A stretch of DNA of 36,145 nt from Candidatus Zipacnadia bacterium (GTDB taxonomy: Bacteria > Armatimonadota > Zipacnadia > Zipacnadales > Zipacnadaceae): NCBI GenBank assembly GCA_029821195.1, contig JALGTU010000012.1, positions 1-36,145 of the forward strand, in the 5' to 3' direction. The first letter of the stretch is position 1. Each line of letters starts with the position of its first letter. The notes under the pieces were generated by a model that worked only from the letters and a program-made list of their open reading frames with translations, did not search any database and was not told the origin of the DNA. Below are positions 4,992-11,811 of this stretch, one piece after another. A program made the translations under genes and the position numbers.

Positions 4992-6611
4992 ATGTCAATC
5001 ATGGGTCTGCGCAAGGGTTTCAGCAAGCCCATCCATATCCGGGTCGGGAAGCGTACCATACGTCTGGGTACTCCGCTAACCGTCTTTTTCTGGGCTATTG
5101 TGGTAATCTTCCTCGCCGGCGCCTATTTCAGCTTTGGCCTGGGCCGAGCGTCCAATCCAGCCGCTCAGCGAGGCCAGCACGAAGGTATCCGCCGCGTCAC
5201 TCCGATAGTGGCCCAGGTCGGGGGGTATAAGATCGAGCGCGAGGACTTCGAGACGCGCTTTATGCGCATGGTGGAGCGCCAGCCCGGAGGCATACCCATC
5301 AGCCGACAAGCCTTTGCCAAGTACCAGTTGATGGAAAGCATGATCGAGCACCACCTGCTCCTCAAAGCAGCAAAGGCCGAGAAGCTAAATGTCTCGCGCC
5401 AGGACTTGGACGCCCGCATCGAAGAAATGGTCGAGGACTCGATGCAGCGCAACTTCCCCGATCAGAAGCAACTGGTGAAGTACCTGCAGAAGAAAGGGCT
5501 TTCTTACGATCAGTACCGCAACCAGCTTCGCGAGGGCCTGGTGTCCAACCGCGATGCCATGCGGGAAGACCTGCTCCTGGAAAAGCTCGAAGAGAAAGTC
5601 AAAGGGCAGGTCGAAGTCACCGACGAGACGGTCAAGCAGCAATACGAAGAGGTCAAGGCACGCCACATCCTCATCCGGCCTGACAAGCTCGCCCAGGGCG
5701 CAACCGACGAAGCCGACCAGGCGGAGGGCCCGGAGGCCGACAGCTCGGCACCGGAGCTTTCCGAGGAACAAGCTGAGGAGCAGGCCTGGCACCAGGCGGA
5801 AGAGCTGTTGGCCAAGATCGAAGCAGGGGCGGATTTTGCCCAGCTCGCCAAAGAGCATTCCGACGATACCGCCAGTGCTGCCAAAGGCGGCGACCTGGGG
5901 TGGTTCAGTCGCCGCGCGATGGTCAAGGAGTTCTCCGATGCCGCCTTTGCCCTTGAGCCGGGACAGGTGAGCGGCGTAGTAAAATCGCCCTTCGGGGTTC
6001 ATATCATCAAGGTGGAAGACAAGCGCGTAAACCTGCCCGAGGACTTCGAGGAGAATAGGCAGCGCTACGTTGATCAGCAGAAAGCCACCCAGGAGTTCCA
6101 AGCCTGGAACCAATACAAGCAGGACCTCAAACAGCAGGCTGATATCCAGATCCACGACCCCGAGCTCCAGGCGCTTGGCCTGATTACCCAGGGCCGGCAG
6201 GACGAGGCTATCCCGCTGCTGGTGCAGGCGGCGGAGAATGACTCCTACAACCTGACCGCGCGATATGCGCTAGCCGAGACCTATCAACAGAAAGGCAACA
6301 AGCAGCAGGCTATTGAGTACTACCGCCAGGTAGTCGAGCTTGCCCCCGGCCCCGCGTCGTCCGAGGCGCACCTGGAACTGGGCAAACTGCTGCGGGACCA
6401 GGGCGAAAAGGAAGAAGCCCTGGAGGAATTCAAGAGCGCGTCAGACTGGGCTGCCTCCCTGCAATATCAGAATTACTACACGCACACGCAACTGCAGAAG
6501 ATATATGAAGAGATGGGCCATACCGAAGGCGTCGCGCAGGAGCAGGCGTGGCTGGACGAGTTCGAAGAGGCCCAGGAAGAATCAACGGGCGGCACCATGA
6601 CGCTCCCGTAG
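4992..6611 (+). CDS. Membrane-anchored parvulin-type peptidylprolyl isomerase with C-terminal TPRs
   Basis: This 539-residue protein has one N-terminal membrane segment (about 29-52) after a basic cytoplasmic leader, so the rest should be extracytoplasmic. A SurA/PrsA-like helical chaperone region (about 70-210) is followed by a PpiC/rotamase domain (about 222-345) with ARHILI, FAQLAKEHSDD, KGGDLGWF, AFALEPGQVSGVVKSPFGVH and IIKVED. An acidic Glu/Ala/Asp-rich insertion of about 35 residues splits the domain after ARHILIRPDK. The C-terminus (about 385-495) holds three TPR-like repeats (ARYALAETYQQKGNKQQAIE, HLELGKLLRDQGEKEEALEE). AAGGAG (4973-4978) precedes the ATG; a second ATG lies at 5001. 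The likely role is folding of secreted or outer-membrane proteins. The fused TPR region is unusual for PrsA or SurA. Confidence 0.9.
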   Translation: MSIMGLRKGFSKPIHIRVGKRTIRLGTPLTVFFWAIVVIFLAGAYFSFGLGRASNPAAQRGQHEGIRRVTPIVAQVGGYKIEREDFETRFMRMVERQPGGIPISRQAFAKYQLMESMIEHHLLLKAAKAEKLNVSRQDLDARIEEMVEDSMQRNFPDQKQLVKYLQKKGLSYDQYRNQLREGLVSNRDAMREDLLLEKLEEKVKGQVEVTDETVKQQYEEVKARHILIRPDKLAQGATDEADQAEGPEADSSAPELSEEQAEEQAWHQAEELLAKIEAGADFAQLAKEHSDDTASAAKGGDLGWFSRRAMVKEFSDAAFALEPGQVSGVVKSPFGVHIIKVEDKRVNLPEDFEENRQRYVDQQKATQEFQAWNQYKQDLKQQADIQIHDPELQALGLITQGRQDEAIPLLVQAAENDSYNLTARYALAETYQQKGNKQQAIEYYRQVVELAPGPASSEAHLELGKLLRDQGEKEEALEEFKSASDWAASLQYQNYYTHTQLQKIYEEMGHTEGVAQEQAWLDEFEEAQEESTGGTMTLP

Positions 6612-6628
6612 CGCCGGGGCACCGGGCT

Positions 6629-7498
6629 ATGACCAGGCTCGAGCCAGAGACAAAGCCAACGGGTGTCCTCTATGTAGTGGCCACTCCCCTGGGCAACCTC
6701 CAGGATACCACCCACCGCGCGCTCGACGTGCTCGGGTGCGTAGACATGGCGGTGGCCGAAGATACCCGCCGCACCCGGAAGCTCCTCGCCCATTTTGGCA
6801 TCTCCGCTCCCCTCGAAAGCTATCACGGCGAAAGTAGTCCCGAAAAAGCAAGTCGCCTGGTTGAGCGACTCAAGGCCGGTGCTCAGATGGCGCTGCTGTC
6901 GGACTCGGGGACGCCCGCCGTCTCTGATCCGGGGGCCAAACTGGTTCGCCTGGCCCTGGACAACGGAATCAAGGTGGTGCCGATTCCCGGCCCCAGTGCG
7001 GTGACTGCGGCCTTCTCGGTGGCGGGTATTTCCGCTGGCGGCTTCGTCTTCGCCGGTTACCCCCCGCGCAAGGCCGGTGAGAAGCAGTCGTTCCTCCAGC
7101 GAATCGGCGACGAGCCCCGTCCCACGATCTTCTACGAAGCGCCGCAGCGGATAGTGTCTACCTTACAGACGTTGGCCGAAATCTGCCCCGACCGGCGGAT
7201 ACTGGTGGCCCGGGAGCTGACCAAACTGCACGAAGAGCTCCGGCCTGGCAGCGTGGCCGAGATGGCCGAGTACTTCTCACAGCAGGAGCCGCGCGGGGAG
7301 TTCACGCTGGTGCTCAGCCCGGCACAAGTGCAGGACTCACGGCCAGAGGTATCTCAGGAGGCCTTGCGTGAGGCAATCGAGGCAATGCTAGCGGCGGGAA
7401 TGAGTCGGCGGGACGTGGCGCACGTGGTCGAGCTGCTGACCGGTCTTGGCCGCAACCAGGCGTACGAGTTGGCTCAGCGCAGGAGTGGTCAGCAGTAG
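6629..7498 (+). CDS. rsmI: 16S rRNA (cytidine(1402)-2'-O)-methyltransferase
   Basis: RsmI uses SAM to 2'-O-methylate C1402 in the decoding centre of 16S rRNA. The 289-residue protein has the tetrapyrrole-methylase fold signatures of this family: LYVVATPLGNLQD, AEDTRRTRKLL, SYHGE, LLSDSGTPAVSDPG, IPGPSAVTAAFSVAGI, GFVFAGYPPRK, IFYEAPQRI, ARELTKLHEE and RGEFTLVL. The ATG at 6629 fits the usual N-terminus; the frame is open further upstream but that part overlaps the PPIase gene and is not family-like. It starts 17 bases after the PPIase stop, probably in the same transcript. It converges on the EamA gene, with only one base between the two stop codons. Confidence 0.95.
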   Translation: MTRLEPETKPTGVLYVVATPLGNLQDTTHRALDVLGCVDMAVAEDTRRTRKLLAHFGISAPLESYHGESSPEKASRLVERLKAGAQMALLSDSGTPAVSDPGAKLVRLALDNGIKVVPIPGPSAVTAAFSVAGISAGGFVFAGYPPRKAGEKQSFLQRIGDEPRPTIFYEAPQRIVSTLQTLAEICPDRRILVARELTKLHEELRPGSVAEMAEYFSQQEPRGEFTLVLSPAQVQDSRPEVSQEALREAIEAMLAAGMSRRDVAHVVELLTGLGRNQAYELAQRRSGQQ

Positions 7499-7499
7499 A

Positions 7500-7946
7500 T
7501 CACAGCCCGCCGTTGCGGCCCAGGCCGGAGACCAGTATTATCCCCACTACTATGCAGACTACGCCCAGCAGCTTCGTCCCGGTCATCTTCTCCCCCAACA
7601 GCAGTATCGCCAGCGCCACGGTGACCAGCGGGTAGGTGGCAGTCACTGGCACTACCTGGGAGGCCGGAGCGATCTTGAGCGCCCGGTAATACATAAACTG
7701 CCCGAAAACCTGGGACAGCAGCGACCCCGCGACCACCCACGCTACCGGCACCCAGCTGGCAGTGGCAATCTCCCCAAAAAGCCCGGCCGCTCCGCCCCAG
7801 ATGGAAATAACTGTGGCAGCAACCAGACTGCGCAGCAGCAGCAAGCCCTGAGCCGACAGGTCCCGCACGGCCAGCTTGTCACAGATGGTGCCACCGCCCC
7901 AGCTCATGACGGTCGCTAACGCGGAAAACAGTGCAGTGGGGTTCAC
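7500..7946 (-). CDS. EamA/DMT-family transporter, single-domain form
   Basis: The 148-residue protein is very hydrophobic, with about five membrane helices and one EamA domain (CDKLAVRDLS, GQFMYYRALKIAPASQVVPV, YPLVTVALAILLLGEKMTGTK, GVVCIVVGIILV). Drug/metabolite-superfamily members of this half size work as dimers and move small metabolites across the inner membrane; the substrate cannot be read from sequence. The start is a GTG at 7946 with GGAGGT nine bases upstream. It is the last gene of a minus-strand set after GHMP kinase, FGGY kinase and URO-D protein (47-base gap), so it could carry a related small molecule. That link is an inference. Confidence 0.85.
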   Translation of the reverse strand: MNPTALFSALATVMSWGGGTICDKLAVRDLSAQGLLLLRSLVAATVISIWGGAAGLFGEIATASWVPVAWVVAGSLLSQVFGQFMYYRALKIAPASQVVPVTATYPLVTVALAILLLGEKMTGTKLLGVVCIVVGIILVSGLGRNGGL

Positions 7947-7993
7947 TTGGGAAGTACCTCCGAATCGAATGCAGACGTTTGCGCCGGCCGACT

Positions 7994-9085
7994 TCAGTAA
8001 TTTCCGTGTTCGCGCAGCAGCTCCAGCGCGTAGCAGTAGGTCTCGAAGCGCACATCCGGCGGGATGGAGTGGTCGGAGTGGAATATGTACGGGATGCGCA
8101 TTTCTTTGAGCGTCTCGATCTTACCCACCACTTCTTCCCGCACCTTGTCTCTGTCATTGGTATTGAGGACGGTCACGTCAATATTACCCATATACGAAAT
8201 CTGGTTGCCGTACTCGTGCGCAAACTCAACCACATTGTTGCCCGCCTTGGCCTCCATCGCTTGCAGACAGTCAAAGCCCGCCTCGATAATGATGGGCACG
8301 GCCTGGCGCACGTCACCACAGGTATGTAGAATAACAGGGAGACCGTAGTCCTTGAAGAAACCGACCAGCTCCGTATAGTAGGGCAGAAACAGCTTCCGCA
8401 TTGTCTGGGGCGAGCACCATAGCCCATTGGTAAACCCCACATCCTCATAAATGAACATGCCGTCGGGCAGCCCGGCTTCATCGAACAGCGCCGCATAATG
8501 AGCCTTGAAGAATGCAAGGTAAACACTATTGAAGTCGTGGATCCAGTCCGGCTCAATGAGCAGCGCCGGCAGCCAAACCAGGTCGCCGAGCGTGGCACGC
8601 AGCAGCTCTACGAAGACCATGTTTCCATAGAAGGCAAACTTGCCCTTCTCGCGGACAACCGCCAGGTCCTCGCGAGTCTTGGCAGCGTCATAGCGGCTTC
8701 GGTCCAGCTCCAGGAGCGGCTCGCGGAACTCAGCCCACGTCTCCGGGCTGGTCACTGTGAAGCCGATATGCTGGGGTGTTCCCGACTTGTTTTTCCAGTA
8801 CTTGAGTATCGCGCCGCGGCCGTCTTTGCGGACGTACCACTCGTCGGTTTCCTCAAGTATCTCCTCGACTCCGGGGAACGGCACAGTGCCCAGCCAACCG
8901 CCCGCTCCCTGGAGGTCGAGATGGAAATAGTCCCCGGGCGCCTCGCCCTCGGGATAGCCTTCATTGACCCAGTAGTCGCGGATCGTCTCGCCCCAGAAGT
9001 GCTCGAACAGCCCCATCCGGTCGGGAATCTGCTTATTAAGCAGCATGGTTATTCGTTCGCGAGAGTTCACAATAGCCAATCCCAC
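7994..9085 (-). CDS. Uroporphyrinogen decarboxylase (URO-D) family protein, probably a methyltransferase-type member
   Basis: The 363-residue protein has the URO-D/MtaA-CmuA fold pattern: SRERITMLLNKQIPDR at the start, EPDWIHDFN, YEDVGFTNGLWCSP, LPVILHTCGDV (His254, Cys256), CLQAMEAKAGNN, ISYMGNIDV. The HxCG motif is a zinc/thiol-methyl-transfer feature of MtaA/CmuA-like members. The RQAGRYLPEY-type N-terminus of true HemE is absent, so haem synthesis is unlikely. Proteins of this kind often occur in sugar- or glycan-catabolic clusters, with unknown reactions. It lies 45 bases downstream of the FGGY kinase. The GTG start at 9085 has no clear SD; a second in-frame GTG lies five codons in. Confidence 0.85.
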   Translation of the reverse strand: MGLAIVNSRERITMLLNKQIPDRMGLFEHFWGETIRDYWVNEGYPEGEAPGDYFHLDLQGAGGWLGTVPFPGVEEILEETDEWYVRKDGRGAILKYWKNKSGTPQHIGFTVTSPETWAEFREPLLELDRSRYDAAKTREDLAVVREKGKFAFYGNMVFVELLRATLGDLVWLPALLIEPDWIHDFNSVYLAFFKAHYAALFDEAGLPDGMFIYEDVGFTNGLWCSPQTMRKLFLPYYTELVGFFKDYGLPVILHTCGDVRQAVPIIIEAGFDCLQAMEAKAGNNVVEFAHEYGNQISYMGNIDVTVLNTNDRDKVREEVVGKIETLKEMRIPYIFHSDHSIPPDVRFETYCYALELLREHGNY

Positions 9086-9130
9086 TAGGACATAGTTGTG
9101 ATCGCAGCAGACTGCCCGGAGATGTTGCTA

Positions 9131-10636
9131 CTACAACTGGTGTGCTATATCACGCACTGCTGGCCACAATTGCTTGTACAGCTCGAAACAGTGCGCGTAG
9201 CTTTCGTGCACCTGCACATCGGGTTCGTAGACAGTCCCCTCCCGGACGAGCTGCTCGACTGCGTCCGGGATCGAGCTGTAGACTCCCGCCGCTACGCCGC
9301 CCAGAATCGCACCCGCCTGGCAGCCACTCTCAGTGACGTTGATGGTCACCACCTCACGCCCAGTGATATCCGCCTTGAGCTGGAGCCAGTAGGAGCTCTT
9401 GGAGCCGCCGCCGGTGGCACGCAGGCGGCTGACTTCAATTCCGGCCTGCGCCAGCGATTCCAGATTCAGTCGCAACTCCAGGCAGAGGCCCTCGAGCAGG
9501 CCCTTGACGAAAGTCTTGCGGTCGGTGCCCAGCGTCATCCCCAGCATAGCGCCTTTGGCCTGGGCGTCCATATAGGGCGTGCCCGAACCGACAAAGTAGG
9601 GGACTACCAGTAGTCCGGTAGACCCGTCGGGCAAGCCTTCCAGGATTATCTCGTAAACGTCGCGGCCCTGGTCCTCGGCGCGCCGGCGGTCGGCTTCGGC
9701 GAAGTTATCCCGAAACCAGCGCAGCAGACTGCCGCTGGAATAGTTGAACGCGAGCGTGGCGTACATATCGCCGACCACGTGCGGATAGCAGCAGTAGCCG
9801 TGGCGGAGCATCGCCTCGCTGAGCACCGGCTGATCGAAGGCGACAGTAACGCACTCGACAGTGCCCATGCCGTCTACCGCCAGGCCCTCGGCGATGATCC
9901 CCGCACCCAGCGCGTTCATCGGCTGGTCGTGGCCGCCCGCCACGATCAGGCAGTCGGTGGTCAAACCGAGCTGCTCTGCCGCCCGAGCAGGCAGATGCCC
10001 CACTACTTCCCCGGGCCGGATAGGCTCGGCCAGAAGCGCCGGCGTGATGCCTGCCGCCTGAAGCATCGCCTCCGACCACTCGCGGTCCACCACGTCAAAG
10101 GCCATCGTCCGCCCCGCCAGGCTCCAGTCCAGTCGCGGCGGCAAGCCGAGCTTAAAGCAGATTACATCAGGCCACAGCAAGTACTTGTAGACATTAGCGT
10201 GGACTTCAGGCTCGTTATCGCGCAGCCACATCAACTTGGGCAAGGTGAAACTGGGATGAATGGGCATGCCCGTTATCTCGAAAATCCGACGCTCGCCGAC
10301 GATTCCAGCCAGCTCCTCGACCTGTTCCTGGGCGCGGCCATCGTACGAGAGGATACTGCCGTAGAGGAAGTTGGCGTGCTCGTCAACCGGCACGAAGGCC
10401 TCGCCCTGGGCGGATATGGACAGCGCCTCGACCGGGTCTCCCCCACTGCCCGCGGCAACTTGCGAGACCACCGCGACAAACGCCTCCCAGACCTGCCCGG
10501 GGTCGAGCTCGAACCTCCCCGGGGCCGGATGCTGCTCCGGATACTCCCGGTAGGCCTGGGCCATTATGTCCCCATCAGCATTAAACAGCACCACTTTGGT
10601 GCCAGTGCTACCGATATCAATACCCATAAGACTCAC
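9131..10636 (-). CDS. FGGY-family carbohydrate kinase (xylulokinase-like)
   Basis: FGGY kinases phosphorylate sugars or polyols with ATP. The protein shows the N-terminal phosphate-binding motif LMGIDIGSTGTKVVLF, SISAQGEAFVPVD, LWPDVICFKLGLP, DWSLAGRTMAFD, the catalytic-base region VAGGHDQPMNALGAG (Asp about residue 237), GTVECVTVAF, FNYSSGSLLRWF, GLLVVPYFVGSGTPYMD and the C-terminal ATGGGSKSSYWLQLKADITG. Length (501) is normal. I favour the GTG at 10636 because GGGTGA lies just upstream; an in-frame GTG at 10645 and an ATG at 10627 are alternatives. It starts 12 bases after the GHMP kinase stop and is surely co-transcribed. The sugar cannot be named; pairing with a GHMP kinase and a URO-D protein is not a standard pentose pathway. 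Confidence 0.92.
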   Translation of the reverse strand: MSLMGIDIGSTGTKVVLFNADGDIMAQAYREYPEQHPAPGRFELDPGQVWEAFVAVVSQVAAGSGGDPVEALSISAQGEAFVPVDEHANFLYGSILSYDGRAQEQVEELAGIVGERRIFEITGMPIHPSFTLPKLMWLRDNEPEVHANVYKYLLWPDVICFKLGLPPRLDWSLAGRTMAFDVVDREWSEAMLQAAGITPALLAEPIRPGEVVGHLPARAAEQLGLTTDCLIVAGGHDQPMNALGAGIIAEGLAVDGMGTVECVTVAFDQPVLSEAMLRHGYCCYPHVVGDMYATLAFNYSSGSLLRWFRDNFAEADRRRAEDQGRDVYEIILEGLPDGSTGLLVVPYFVGSGTPYMDAQAKGAMLGMTLGTDRKTFVKGLLEGLCLELRLNLESLAQAGIEVSRLRATGGGSKSSYWLQLKADITGREVVTINVTESGCQAGAILGGVAAGVYSSIPDAVEQLVREGTVYEPDVQVHESYAHCFELYKQLWPAVRDIAHQL

Positions 10637-10648
10637 AGTTATCACCCA

Positions 10649-11659
10649 CTAAGTCGTCGTGACCGTAAGTCCCTCTCGGTCTATAGTGTAGGGCAGGTGT
10701 TCGGCCCCGTTCGACTCCAGGGCAGCGATGACCGCCTGGGTCGCGCCGGGCGCAGCCAGCGTGATCATACAGCCGCCGCCGCCCGCCCCGCAGATCTTGC
10801 TGGCCCGCGCGCCCGCCTCCCGCGCCGCCGCCATCAACTGCTCAATCTGCGGAGTGCTGACGCCCTCGGCCAGTCGCCGGCGATTCTGCCACTCCTGGTC
10901 CAGCAGTTCAGCGAAGCGGTCCAGGTCCTCCGATTGGCAGGCCTCGCGCATCGCCAGCGCTGTCTGCTTGATCATCTTCATATTCTGCACCGTCGTGCCC
11001 TGATTCTCGATATACATCTTCATCATATTCCAGTTGCTGGTGCCGGAGAAGTGCGTCTCCCCGGTGAAGCTGAGTACGAGCAGCTCTTCGAGATCCCCCA
11101 TGAACTGCTCCGAGACCTCCAGCCGCTCAACCTCGTCGCCCTCTACCTCGAACCAGATGGCGTTAATGCCACCGTAGAGGGCGGCATAGTAGTCCTGGCG
11201 GCCGGTGGGGACACGGATGTTCTGGGCCTCCAGACAGGAACCGTATTGCACAATCTGCTCGTCGGTAAGGTCGGTGGCCTGGTTGAGCTCGCGCAGAGCG
11301 CCGCTCAGAGCGATGAGCAGCGATGAGGAAGCGCCCAGGCCACTGCCGTGGGGGGCGTCGTTGCGACTGTATACGTCCAGGCCCGTCGCGGGCCGATAAA
11401 AGTGGATGATGCGGGCCATCAAGTCGAGAGGGCCACCCAGCTCCAGCTCATCCACACTAGGGGCCGACTGCTCGGCACCGGTGTCCTCCGAGCGCAGGTG
11501 GATTTCGTCATCGGCCCGGGGAATCAGCCGCAGGTGGCTGCCGACGGATATGCCCATATTCACAGTAATGCCACCGTCTTCAAACAGGTAAAGCGGATAC
11601 AGGTCCAGAGTGCCTCCCGCCAGGTCAATACGAGAGGGGGCAAAAGCCTGAATCTCCAT
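10649..11659 (-). CDS. GHMP-family sugar kinase
   Basis: GHMP kinases phosphorylate small hydroxylated metabolites such as galactose, heptose phosphate or mevalonate. Motifs are present in order: motif 1 APSRIDLAGGTLDLYPLYLF (residues 7-26), motif 2 PHGSGLGASSSLLIALSGAL (103-122) with the ATP-binding Gly/Ser loop, PTGRQDYYAALYGGI, and motif 3 KICGAGGGGCMI (288-299). The ATG at 11659 is chosen because AAGGAG lies nine bases upstream; the open frame extends further but has no such signal. Length is 336 residues. The closest functional type by eye is HddA-like (D-glycero-D-manno-heptose 7-phosphate kinase), but that is weak. It heads the minus-strand set and has its own promoter, which diverges from that of the lipid A operon. 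Confidence 0.88.
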   Translation of the reverse strand: MEIQAFAPSRIDLAGGTLDLYPLYLFEDGGITVNMGISVGSHLRLIPRADDEIHLRSEDTGAEQSAPSVDELELGGPLDLMARIIHFYRPATGLDVYSRNDAPHGSGLGASSSLLIALSGALRELNQATDLTDEQIVQYGSCLEAQNIRVPTGRQDYYAALYGGINAIWFEVEGDEVERLEVSEQFMGDLEELLVLSFTGETHFSGTSNWNMMKMYIENQGTTVQNMKMIKQTALAMREACQSEDLDRFAELLDQEWQNRRRLAEGVSTPQIEQLMAAAREAGARASKICGAGGGGCMITLAAPGATQAVIAALESNGAEHLPYTIDREGLTVTTT

Positions 11660-11706
11660 GGGATAGCGCTCCTTGACGATGACGGAATACTGGACGGTCA
11701 CCCCCG

Positions 11707-11735
11707 ACTTTAGCCTGAAACCAGGGGCCTGTCAA
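11707..11735 (-). promoter_or_regulatory. Promoter of the GHMP kinase-FGGY kinase-URO-D-EamA set
   Basis: On the minus strand TTGACA (11735-11730) is followed after 17 bp by TAAAGT (11712-11707). The start would be near 11700, about 40 bases before the ATG at 11659. Confidence 0.6.
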
Positions 11736-11782: not shown

Positions 11783-11811
11783 TTGACAGTAGCCTGGGGG
11801 GAGAGTATAAT
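11783..11811 (+). promoter_or_regulatory. Consensus sigma70-type promoter of the lipid A operon
   Basis: TTGACA (11783-11788), 17-bp spacer, TATAAT (11806-11811): an exact consensus. The start near 11818 gives a leader of about 125 bases before fabZ. The leader holds a possible hairpin CCGGG/CCCGG (about 11866-11885) and GC-rich palindromic CCGG steps near 11900, but no riboswitch I recognise. Confidence 0.75.

Follow-up and report, generated by a model that had tools for sequence, protein, structure and literature searches.

A patchwork kinase-transporter operon in a Candidatus Zipacnadia genome and its possible link to corrinoid-dependent methyl transfer

This analysis concerns a four-gene unit in a 36,145-nucleotide stretch of DNA, the window, from a Candidatus Zipacnadia/WS1-type (Armatimonadota) metagenome-assembled genome (MAG) that is 95% complete. 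According to the accessible text of PMC10290634, Zipacnadia is an Armatimonadota class found in anoxic sediments; its members are mainly anaerobic acetogens, and in several MAGs the Wood-Ljungdahl pathway is almost complete. Four minus-strand open reading frames occupy positions 7500-11701, with 3, 45, and 47 bp between them; the end of the last one is a single base away from the convergent rsmI (TIGR00096). An original prediction, made from the letters alone, had seen here two kinases of different superfamilies, a uroporphyrinogen decarboxylase superfamily (URO-D) protein other than HemE with an HxCG motif, and a small transporter, all co-directional with short gaps; this description stands throughout. 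Genomes are numbered with G and loci with L; G000 is the window's own genome and G003 is the sister MAG CSMAG_1221. The FGGY kinase and the transporter are kept together in Zipacnadia and their relatives, and the other two genes accompany them in a few genomes. The features are:

11707..11735, minus strand: promoter-like site TTGACA-17-TAAAGT, a consensus match (10/12) 5' of the GHMP gene
10649..11701 (GTG start as listed), minus strand: GHMP-superfamily kinase (Pfam, NCBIfam), a lineage-specific addition
9131..10645, minus strand: FGGY-family kinase, probably for a ketose or polyol (Pfam, structure model), part of the unit's conserved core
7994..9085, minus strand: URO-D superfamily protein (Pfam), a putative corrinoid-dependent methyltransferase, with HTCG at residues 254-257 and HSDHS at 336-340
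7500..7946, minus strand: half-size EamA/DMT transporter of 148 aa (Pfam), the conserved partner of FGGY

All four Pfam assignments are far above chance: E-values are about 2e-13 for each of the GHMP_kinases_N and C domains, 1e-54 for FGGY_N, 6e-32 for FGGY_C, 1.8e-14 for URO-D, and 7e-21 for EamA. The GHMP gene probably starts at an ATG at 11659, 14 codons inside the listed GTG, which would give a protein of 336 aa: AAGGAG lies upstream at 11674-11669, and the sister genome's GHMP protein, as called, begins at the equivalent ATG. The unit had also been credited with its own promoter. The site at 11735-11707 makes this plausible; the scan that found it is suggestive, with four such sites in 4.8 kb vs 1.5 +/- 1.0 in shuffled sequence. 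A perfect sigma-70-like TTGACA-17-TATAAT lies on the plus strand at 11783-11811, where it faces fabZ, divergent to the operon.

How widely is this arrangement kept? The closest FGGY proteins come from "bacterium CSMAG_1221" (88%) and a Candidatus Zipacnadia MAG (77%), and the other near records are labeled Zipacnadia, WS1, Armatimonadota, or Armatimonadetes, with one plain "bacterium". In the FGGY tree, the window pairs with CSMAG_1221 (L132) beside two Zipacnadia MAGs (L133, L134), within a Zipacnadia/WS1/Armatimonadota clade of 24 rows. These rows are the 24 loci compared: the window, L132-L153, and L156 (L154 was uncallable). Among them, L141 is a second G001 copy, and L152 (genome G042) belongs to a different order of the class. 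Some of the loci stop at contig ends, and the genomes are not independent, so that p-values computed from such counts are overstated. Genes in the relatives were called by a hexamer model that errs in some loci (L079, L117, and L224; no FGGY call in L154), and the key comparisons were therefore made by tblastn.

A co-directional EamA gene lies behind FGGY in 16 of the 24 loci (in the window, behind URO-D). A GHMP gene directly precedes FGGY in two (window and L132), and an HxCG URO-D follows it in three (window, L132, and L133). The complete quartet was seen solely in the window and in G003, where it is pieced together across a contig break: the L132 contig holds just the start of URO-D, and the remaining URO-D, EamA, and rsmI lie on contig C13. 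Such a break may be due to a URO-D paralogue like the 77% identical one in the window's own genome. G001 has FGGY, URO-D, and 71 EamA residues at a contig end, with no GHMP beside FGGY; G002 and G011 have the FGGY-EamA pair alone, without URO-D or GHMP. In other families the pair adjoins NAD-synthase, rsmI, or adenylosuccinate-lyase-type genes. Approached from the other two genes, the picture is similar. Full-length GHMP relatives of at least 44% identity occur in 15 of 60 other genomes; in the 15 GHMP loci from the best relatives, FGGY was found in G003 only, and the other 14 gave no FGGY or EamA match (tblastn, 5-14 kb fetched). None of 11 URO-D orthologues (44-62%; G009, G055, G059, G072, G077, G087, G088, G102, G108, G150, and G156) had an FGGY, GHMP, or EamA match in its fetched flanks. 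The locus itself is thus an ordinary patchwork, with a conserved kinase-transporter core and a patchy history: URO-D lies between FGGY and EamA in the window's genus, and GHMP stands in front in the window and its sister. The order in which URO-D and GHMP were gained is inferred.

What might the core act on? FGGY_N and FGGY_C span the full length of the kinase, and Asp240 is invariant in 52 rows; we take it to be the catalytic Asp of FGGY kinases. The best sequence matches in the PDB are a xylulokinase (2itm, 9e-48) and the AI-2 kinase LsrK (5ya0, 1e-46), and the structure model (predicted local distance difference test score, pLDDT, 95) comes closest to glycerol kinases (6k76, Z 48.6, 1.8 A over 473), with Z 45.6 to xylulokinase 5vm1. 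The window protein resembles all these kinases over both full-length domains (model Z 41-49); unlike them, it falls under every listed NCBIfam cut-off and sits in a clade of its own. It is not a curated xylulokinase (TIGR01312, 307.2 vs an equivalog cut-off of 380.25), and it misses the curated glycerol kinase cut-off as well. Its substrate is likely of a ketose type, because relatives adjoin sugar isomerase and aldolase genes. In gut Clostridia, FGGY relatives (33-35%) lie in operons with an L-fucose-isomerase-type protein (Pfam, L163 and L166), a DUF4432 protein, and a class II aldolase (Pfam, L163); in Bathyarchaeota, relatives (40-43%) adjoin an L-rhamnose-isomerase-type protein (Pfam, L157 and L159) and a class II aldolase (Pfam, L157). 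In G046, the protein after FGGY has a sub-threshold fucose-isomerase match. Elsewhere in the window's own genome, another FGGY kinase is grouped with a class II aldolase and a fucose-isomerase-type protein; this ketose cluster is the more complete one (L194, contig C42, 5028-8983).

EamA family membership is borne out by a score of 75.3 against a gathering score of 28.2. Like other half-size EamA/DMT transporters, the 148-aa protein consists of a single EamA repeat; unlike this lone unit, L144 and L145 carry three and two units in tandem after FGGY, which would fit a heteromeric small transporter.

The GHMP kinase has both the N and C domains of its superfamily, and its nearest solved relatives are an HddA-type heptose kinase (3k85, 2e-38), 4usm, and 4n3o. 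It shares this architecture with HddA and fucokinase and differs from them in its APSRIDLAGGTLD-type N-terminus; all 15 aligned rows have an N-terminus of the RIDLAGGTLD type, with small changes.

The third protein, URO-D, is the one from which the widest interpretation follows. Among its NCBIfam matches at E <= 0.001 the HemE model is absent, so that a HemE identity is rejected; only MtaA/CmuA/MtbA-type models appear, all below cut-off, the best being MtaA/CmuA (TIGR01463) at 40.9 bits vs 235.4. A PDB search with the sequence alone gave no match and the family profile gave weak ones; a plasmid search returned three weak records, none covering 80% of the protein. The structure model, of moderate quality (pLDDT 74.7, built from six sequences), resembles HemE (4zr8, Z 25.1) and the Methanosarcina mazei methylcobalamin:CoM methyltransferase (4ay8, Z 23.0), with MetE next at 14. 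The HTCG motif aligns by profile with HICG of 4ay7, a relative of 4ay8, so that the HxC pair of the zinc site is present: in 29 rows, His254 is invariant and Cys256 is found in 28. Equally invariant (29/29) are His336, Asp338, His339, and Ser340 of the HSDHS block, which contains no Cys. The 4ay7 alignment stops before this block; HemE alignments, in which HSDHS falls on NLGHG, would put His339 close to where S-methyltransferases have their third zinc Cys. Accessible portions of two papers state that UroD S-methyltransferases use His-Cys-Cys, O-methyltransferases having one or both Cys replaced (PMC10418091), and that UroD O-demethylases exist with and without zinc (PMC13222342). Because the third Cys position appears to be Cys-free in the window URO-D, as described for O-methyltransferases in that part of PMC10418091, its motifs lean towards a non-thiol substrate.

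Does this protein depend on a corrinoid? The genome has 36 PF01208 (URO-D) matches, 34 of them over the cut-off, and a single PF02607 (B12-binding_2) match, a 212-aa protein adjoining the reactivase RACo. These two genes lie side by side with no adjacent URO-D (L193, contig C180, 6281-8898; corrinoid protein 6281-6919, RACo 7027-8898). Among 61 relatives, the PF02607 match of all 56 genomes with URO-D falls in a short open frame of 210-290 aa, except in G036, whose corrinoid frames measure only 129 and 140 aa; in the five without URO-D (G049, G051, G052, G056, and G057), PF02607 occurs only in frames of 320-413, 571, or >1200 aa. In a wider draw of 161 genomes from the phylum (at least 85% complete; corrinoid E <= 1e-30, URO-D E <= 1e-5), URO-D was found in 108 and the corrinoid protein in 103, all of them among the 108, and 53 had neither. 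Joint presence holds inside families f17, f21, and f30; f28 and f29 account for three of the exceptions. Phylogeny and an anaerobic life style remain confounders of this nesting. MttB has no match in 12 of the 61 relatives, and seven of these (G002, G012, G027, G043, G047, G048, and G058) keep URO-D and the corrinoid protein. Several MttB matches carry an in-frame TAG, TGA, or TAA (e.g., G003, contig C2, 1159-2631; G050, contig C16, 9944-11431; G000, contig C160, 373-1917), which may reflect pyrrolysine, a frameshift, or a pseudogene.

The link extends to operons. In G070, G128, and G175, URO-D relatives of 31-35% identity are separated from the corrinoid match by 43-106 bp, and those in G079 and G107, of the same identity range, by about 1-2 kb. 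The relative in G113 is 40% identical and stands some 3 kb from the match; further URO-D-like genes are close by, and RACo is behind. Five of these six loci (L218-L223) have a RACo match, the exception being L223; MtaB is confirmed by Pfam in L219, L222, and L223, as is a homocysteine S-methyltransferase in L220, L221, and L223. All six URO-Ds share HSDHS(I/V)P. Within such operons, URO-D could work on the donor side or on the acceptor side. The original prediction had read HxCG as a metal/methyl-transfer motif; methyl transfer by the window URO-D is likely because relatives sit in corrinoid methyltransferase operons, and the part of that claim that holds is this family context, the transfer itself being a prediction. 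Compared with known UroD corrinoid methyltransferases (MtaA/MtbA, OdmB/VdmB/MtvB, and CdmB, as far as they are covered in the accessible text of PMC10418091 and PMC13222342), the window URO-D shares the fold, HxCG, and a genome-level corrinoid link, and its relatives hold an operon-level one; it differs in having no adjoining corrinoid or RACo gene, in its invariant Cys-free HSDHS, and in a genome with one PF02607 match for 36 URO-D matches.

The neighbors of URO-D genes in the window's own genome hint at carbohydrates. Twelve of the 36, on seven contigs, gave 32 first or second neighbors, set against 24 control genes from the mid-stretch of 12 other contigs (15 were taken, three of which had no called gene); third-place genes, such as FGGY in L199 and a rhamnosidase in L200, were left out of the count. 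Carbohydrate-related genes over the Pfam cut-off make up 16 of 32 neighbors vs 4 of 24 controls (Fisher p 0.012) and include GH4, GH29, GH123, GH141, GHL6, GHL10, sulfatases, CBM9, phosphofructokinase, sugar dehydrogenases, a dTDP-sugar epimerase, and a TIM-barrel isomerase. Orthologous URO-D loci elsewhere have a heparinase-like (L084), sulfatase (L227), or sulfatase-like (BLAST; L228) neighbor. The 77% paralogue of the window URO-D is followed immediately, on its own strand, by a GHL6 glycosyl-hydrolase-like gene (L079, contig C190, 597-3717).

Taken together, these observations suggest, tentatively and with somewhat more doubt than confidence, a lineage-specific operon formed by accretion, in which an FGGY-EamA core was joined by a corrinoid-dependent, perhaps O-, methyltransferase and by GHMP. 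URO-D would demethylate a small carbohydrate-related molecule, probably an O-methylated one, and hand the methyl group to the genome's single PF02607 corrinoid protein, which the adjoining RACo would keep active; the methyl group would then enter one-carbon/acetogenic metabolism. FGGY would phosphorylate the freed ketose or polyol, EamA would move the substrate or an intermediate, and GHMP may be a peripheral sugar kinase working in parallel and not a second obligatory step. The O-methyl carbohydrate donor and the order of these steps are as conditional as the transfer itself. A bolder extension, doubtful as it stands, is that the expanded URO-D family of anaerobic Armatimonadota consists of substrate-specific O-demethylases for methylated polysaccharide sugars that unload onto one shared corrinoid protein with RACo, like spokes on a hub, the window unit being one spoke coupled to a ketose kinase.

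Why look beyond the locus? It is the many URO-Ds around one corrinoid protein, rather than the locus itself, that are of interest: a set of corrinoid-dependent URO-Ds, some of them encoded next to glycosidases and sulfatases, is a concrete candidate for anaerobic sugar demethylation. No report of such demethylation by URO-D/corrinoid enzymes was found in the open-licence literature, judged mostly on titles and the starts of abstracts; the accessible text of PMC12316285 states that anaerobic demethylation of a galactose residue is not elucidated, and O-demethylation through a shared corrinoid protein would address that question, called open in print there. If true, it would (i) do without oxygen what the P450 route does for methylated algal sugars; (ii) provide a function for the dozens of URO-D genes found per genome under a family name that implies porphyrin work; and (iii) connect, in sediments, the use of polysaccharides with acetogenic one-carbon metabolism.

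Several observations weigh against a corrinoid-dependent sugar demethylase. No corrinoid or RACo gene lies in or near the window operon, and five of the 108 URO-D genomes (G061, G067, G068, G078, and G083) have no corrinoid match. The corrinoid-linked URO-Ds are 31-40% identical to that of the window, and five of the six have HxDG, only one HxCG. The corrinoid protein could also be explained by MttB or MtaB; the seven URO-D genomes that have it with no MttB match count against the MttB explanation. The sugar-context test is weak, being small and unblinded with author-set categories, and about half of the scanned neighbors were chosen first for their resemblance to sugar genes, the rest being scanned later; p becomes 0.030 with one borderline control counted and 0.044 without phosphofructokinase and Gfo/Idh. 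Any substrate named for the four proteins is a candidate. Possibly, though this is rather unlikely, URO-D has the fold but works as a lyase, isomerase, or decarboxylase and is an unrelated passenger in a plain ketose-kinase/transporter unit: its fold score is slightly higher to HemE than to 4ay8, its operon has no cobalamin gene, HSDHS offers no Cys where the third zinc Cys of S-methyltransferases would be expected, and a second URO-D type joined to FGGY-EamA lacks HxCG. Against this stand two findings: genomes with the corrinoid protein nest within those with URO-D, and URO-D relatives are linked to it in operons.

The original prediction had assembled the four enzymes into one dedicated pathway that would methylate or demethylate a sugar and phosphorylate it at two positions. 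The co-directional genes with short gaps behind one promoter-like site fit this idea, as does the retention of all four in the sister genome; however, GHMP is unseen beside FGGY in 22 of the 24 loci and the HxCG URO-D in 21 (some of which end at contig ends), and GHMP relatives and URO-D orthologues elsewhere do without FGGY or EamA. The gene-neighborhood survey proposed with that prediction thus found next to no conserved co-occurrence; it leads us to reject a dedicated conserved quartet and leaves a pathway for a doubly phosphorylated sugar very unlikely. Just as improbable is surface-sugar synthesis, with an HddA-like GHMP and a ketose phosphate supplied by FGGY feeding lipopolysaccharide via the divergent fabZ-lpxA side. 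The best PDB match of GHMP is indeed a D-glycero-D-manno-heptose kinase (3k85), fabZ adjoins, and an lpxA-like gene, named by eye, follows it; but the NCBIfam HddA model (NF049969) rejects an HddA identity with 144.7 vs an equivalog cut-off of 600, the fabZ side remains where GHMP is lacking (L134, L135), and FGGY-EamA remains where fabZ is not a neighbor. No heptose gene was seen beside GHMP, the rest of the genome not having been searched for them.

Finally, functionally unrelated genes may have gathered behind one promoter in the window's genus. The patchiness along the FGGY tree and the varied neighbors of FGGY-EamA in other families fit such an origin, and yet it is unlikely: in two clades, FGGY-EamA was joined by URO-D proteins of two types that are only distantly related, which is modest evidence for a functional link between URO-D and FGGY-EamA. 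The second type, without HxCG and at best 24% identical to the window URO-D, lies downstream of FGGY in eight rows of a nine-row FGGY clade, in six of them behind a called EamA gene; on the ninth contig nothing is visible past EamA. It is found in L142, L143, L147-L150, L153, and L156, as a tandem pair in L148, L150, and L153.

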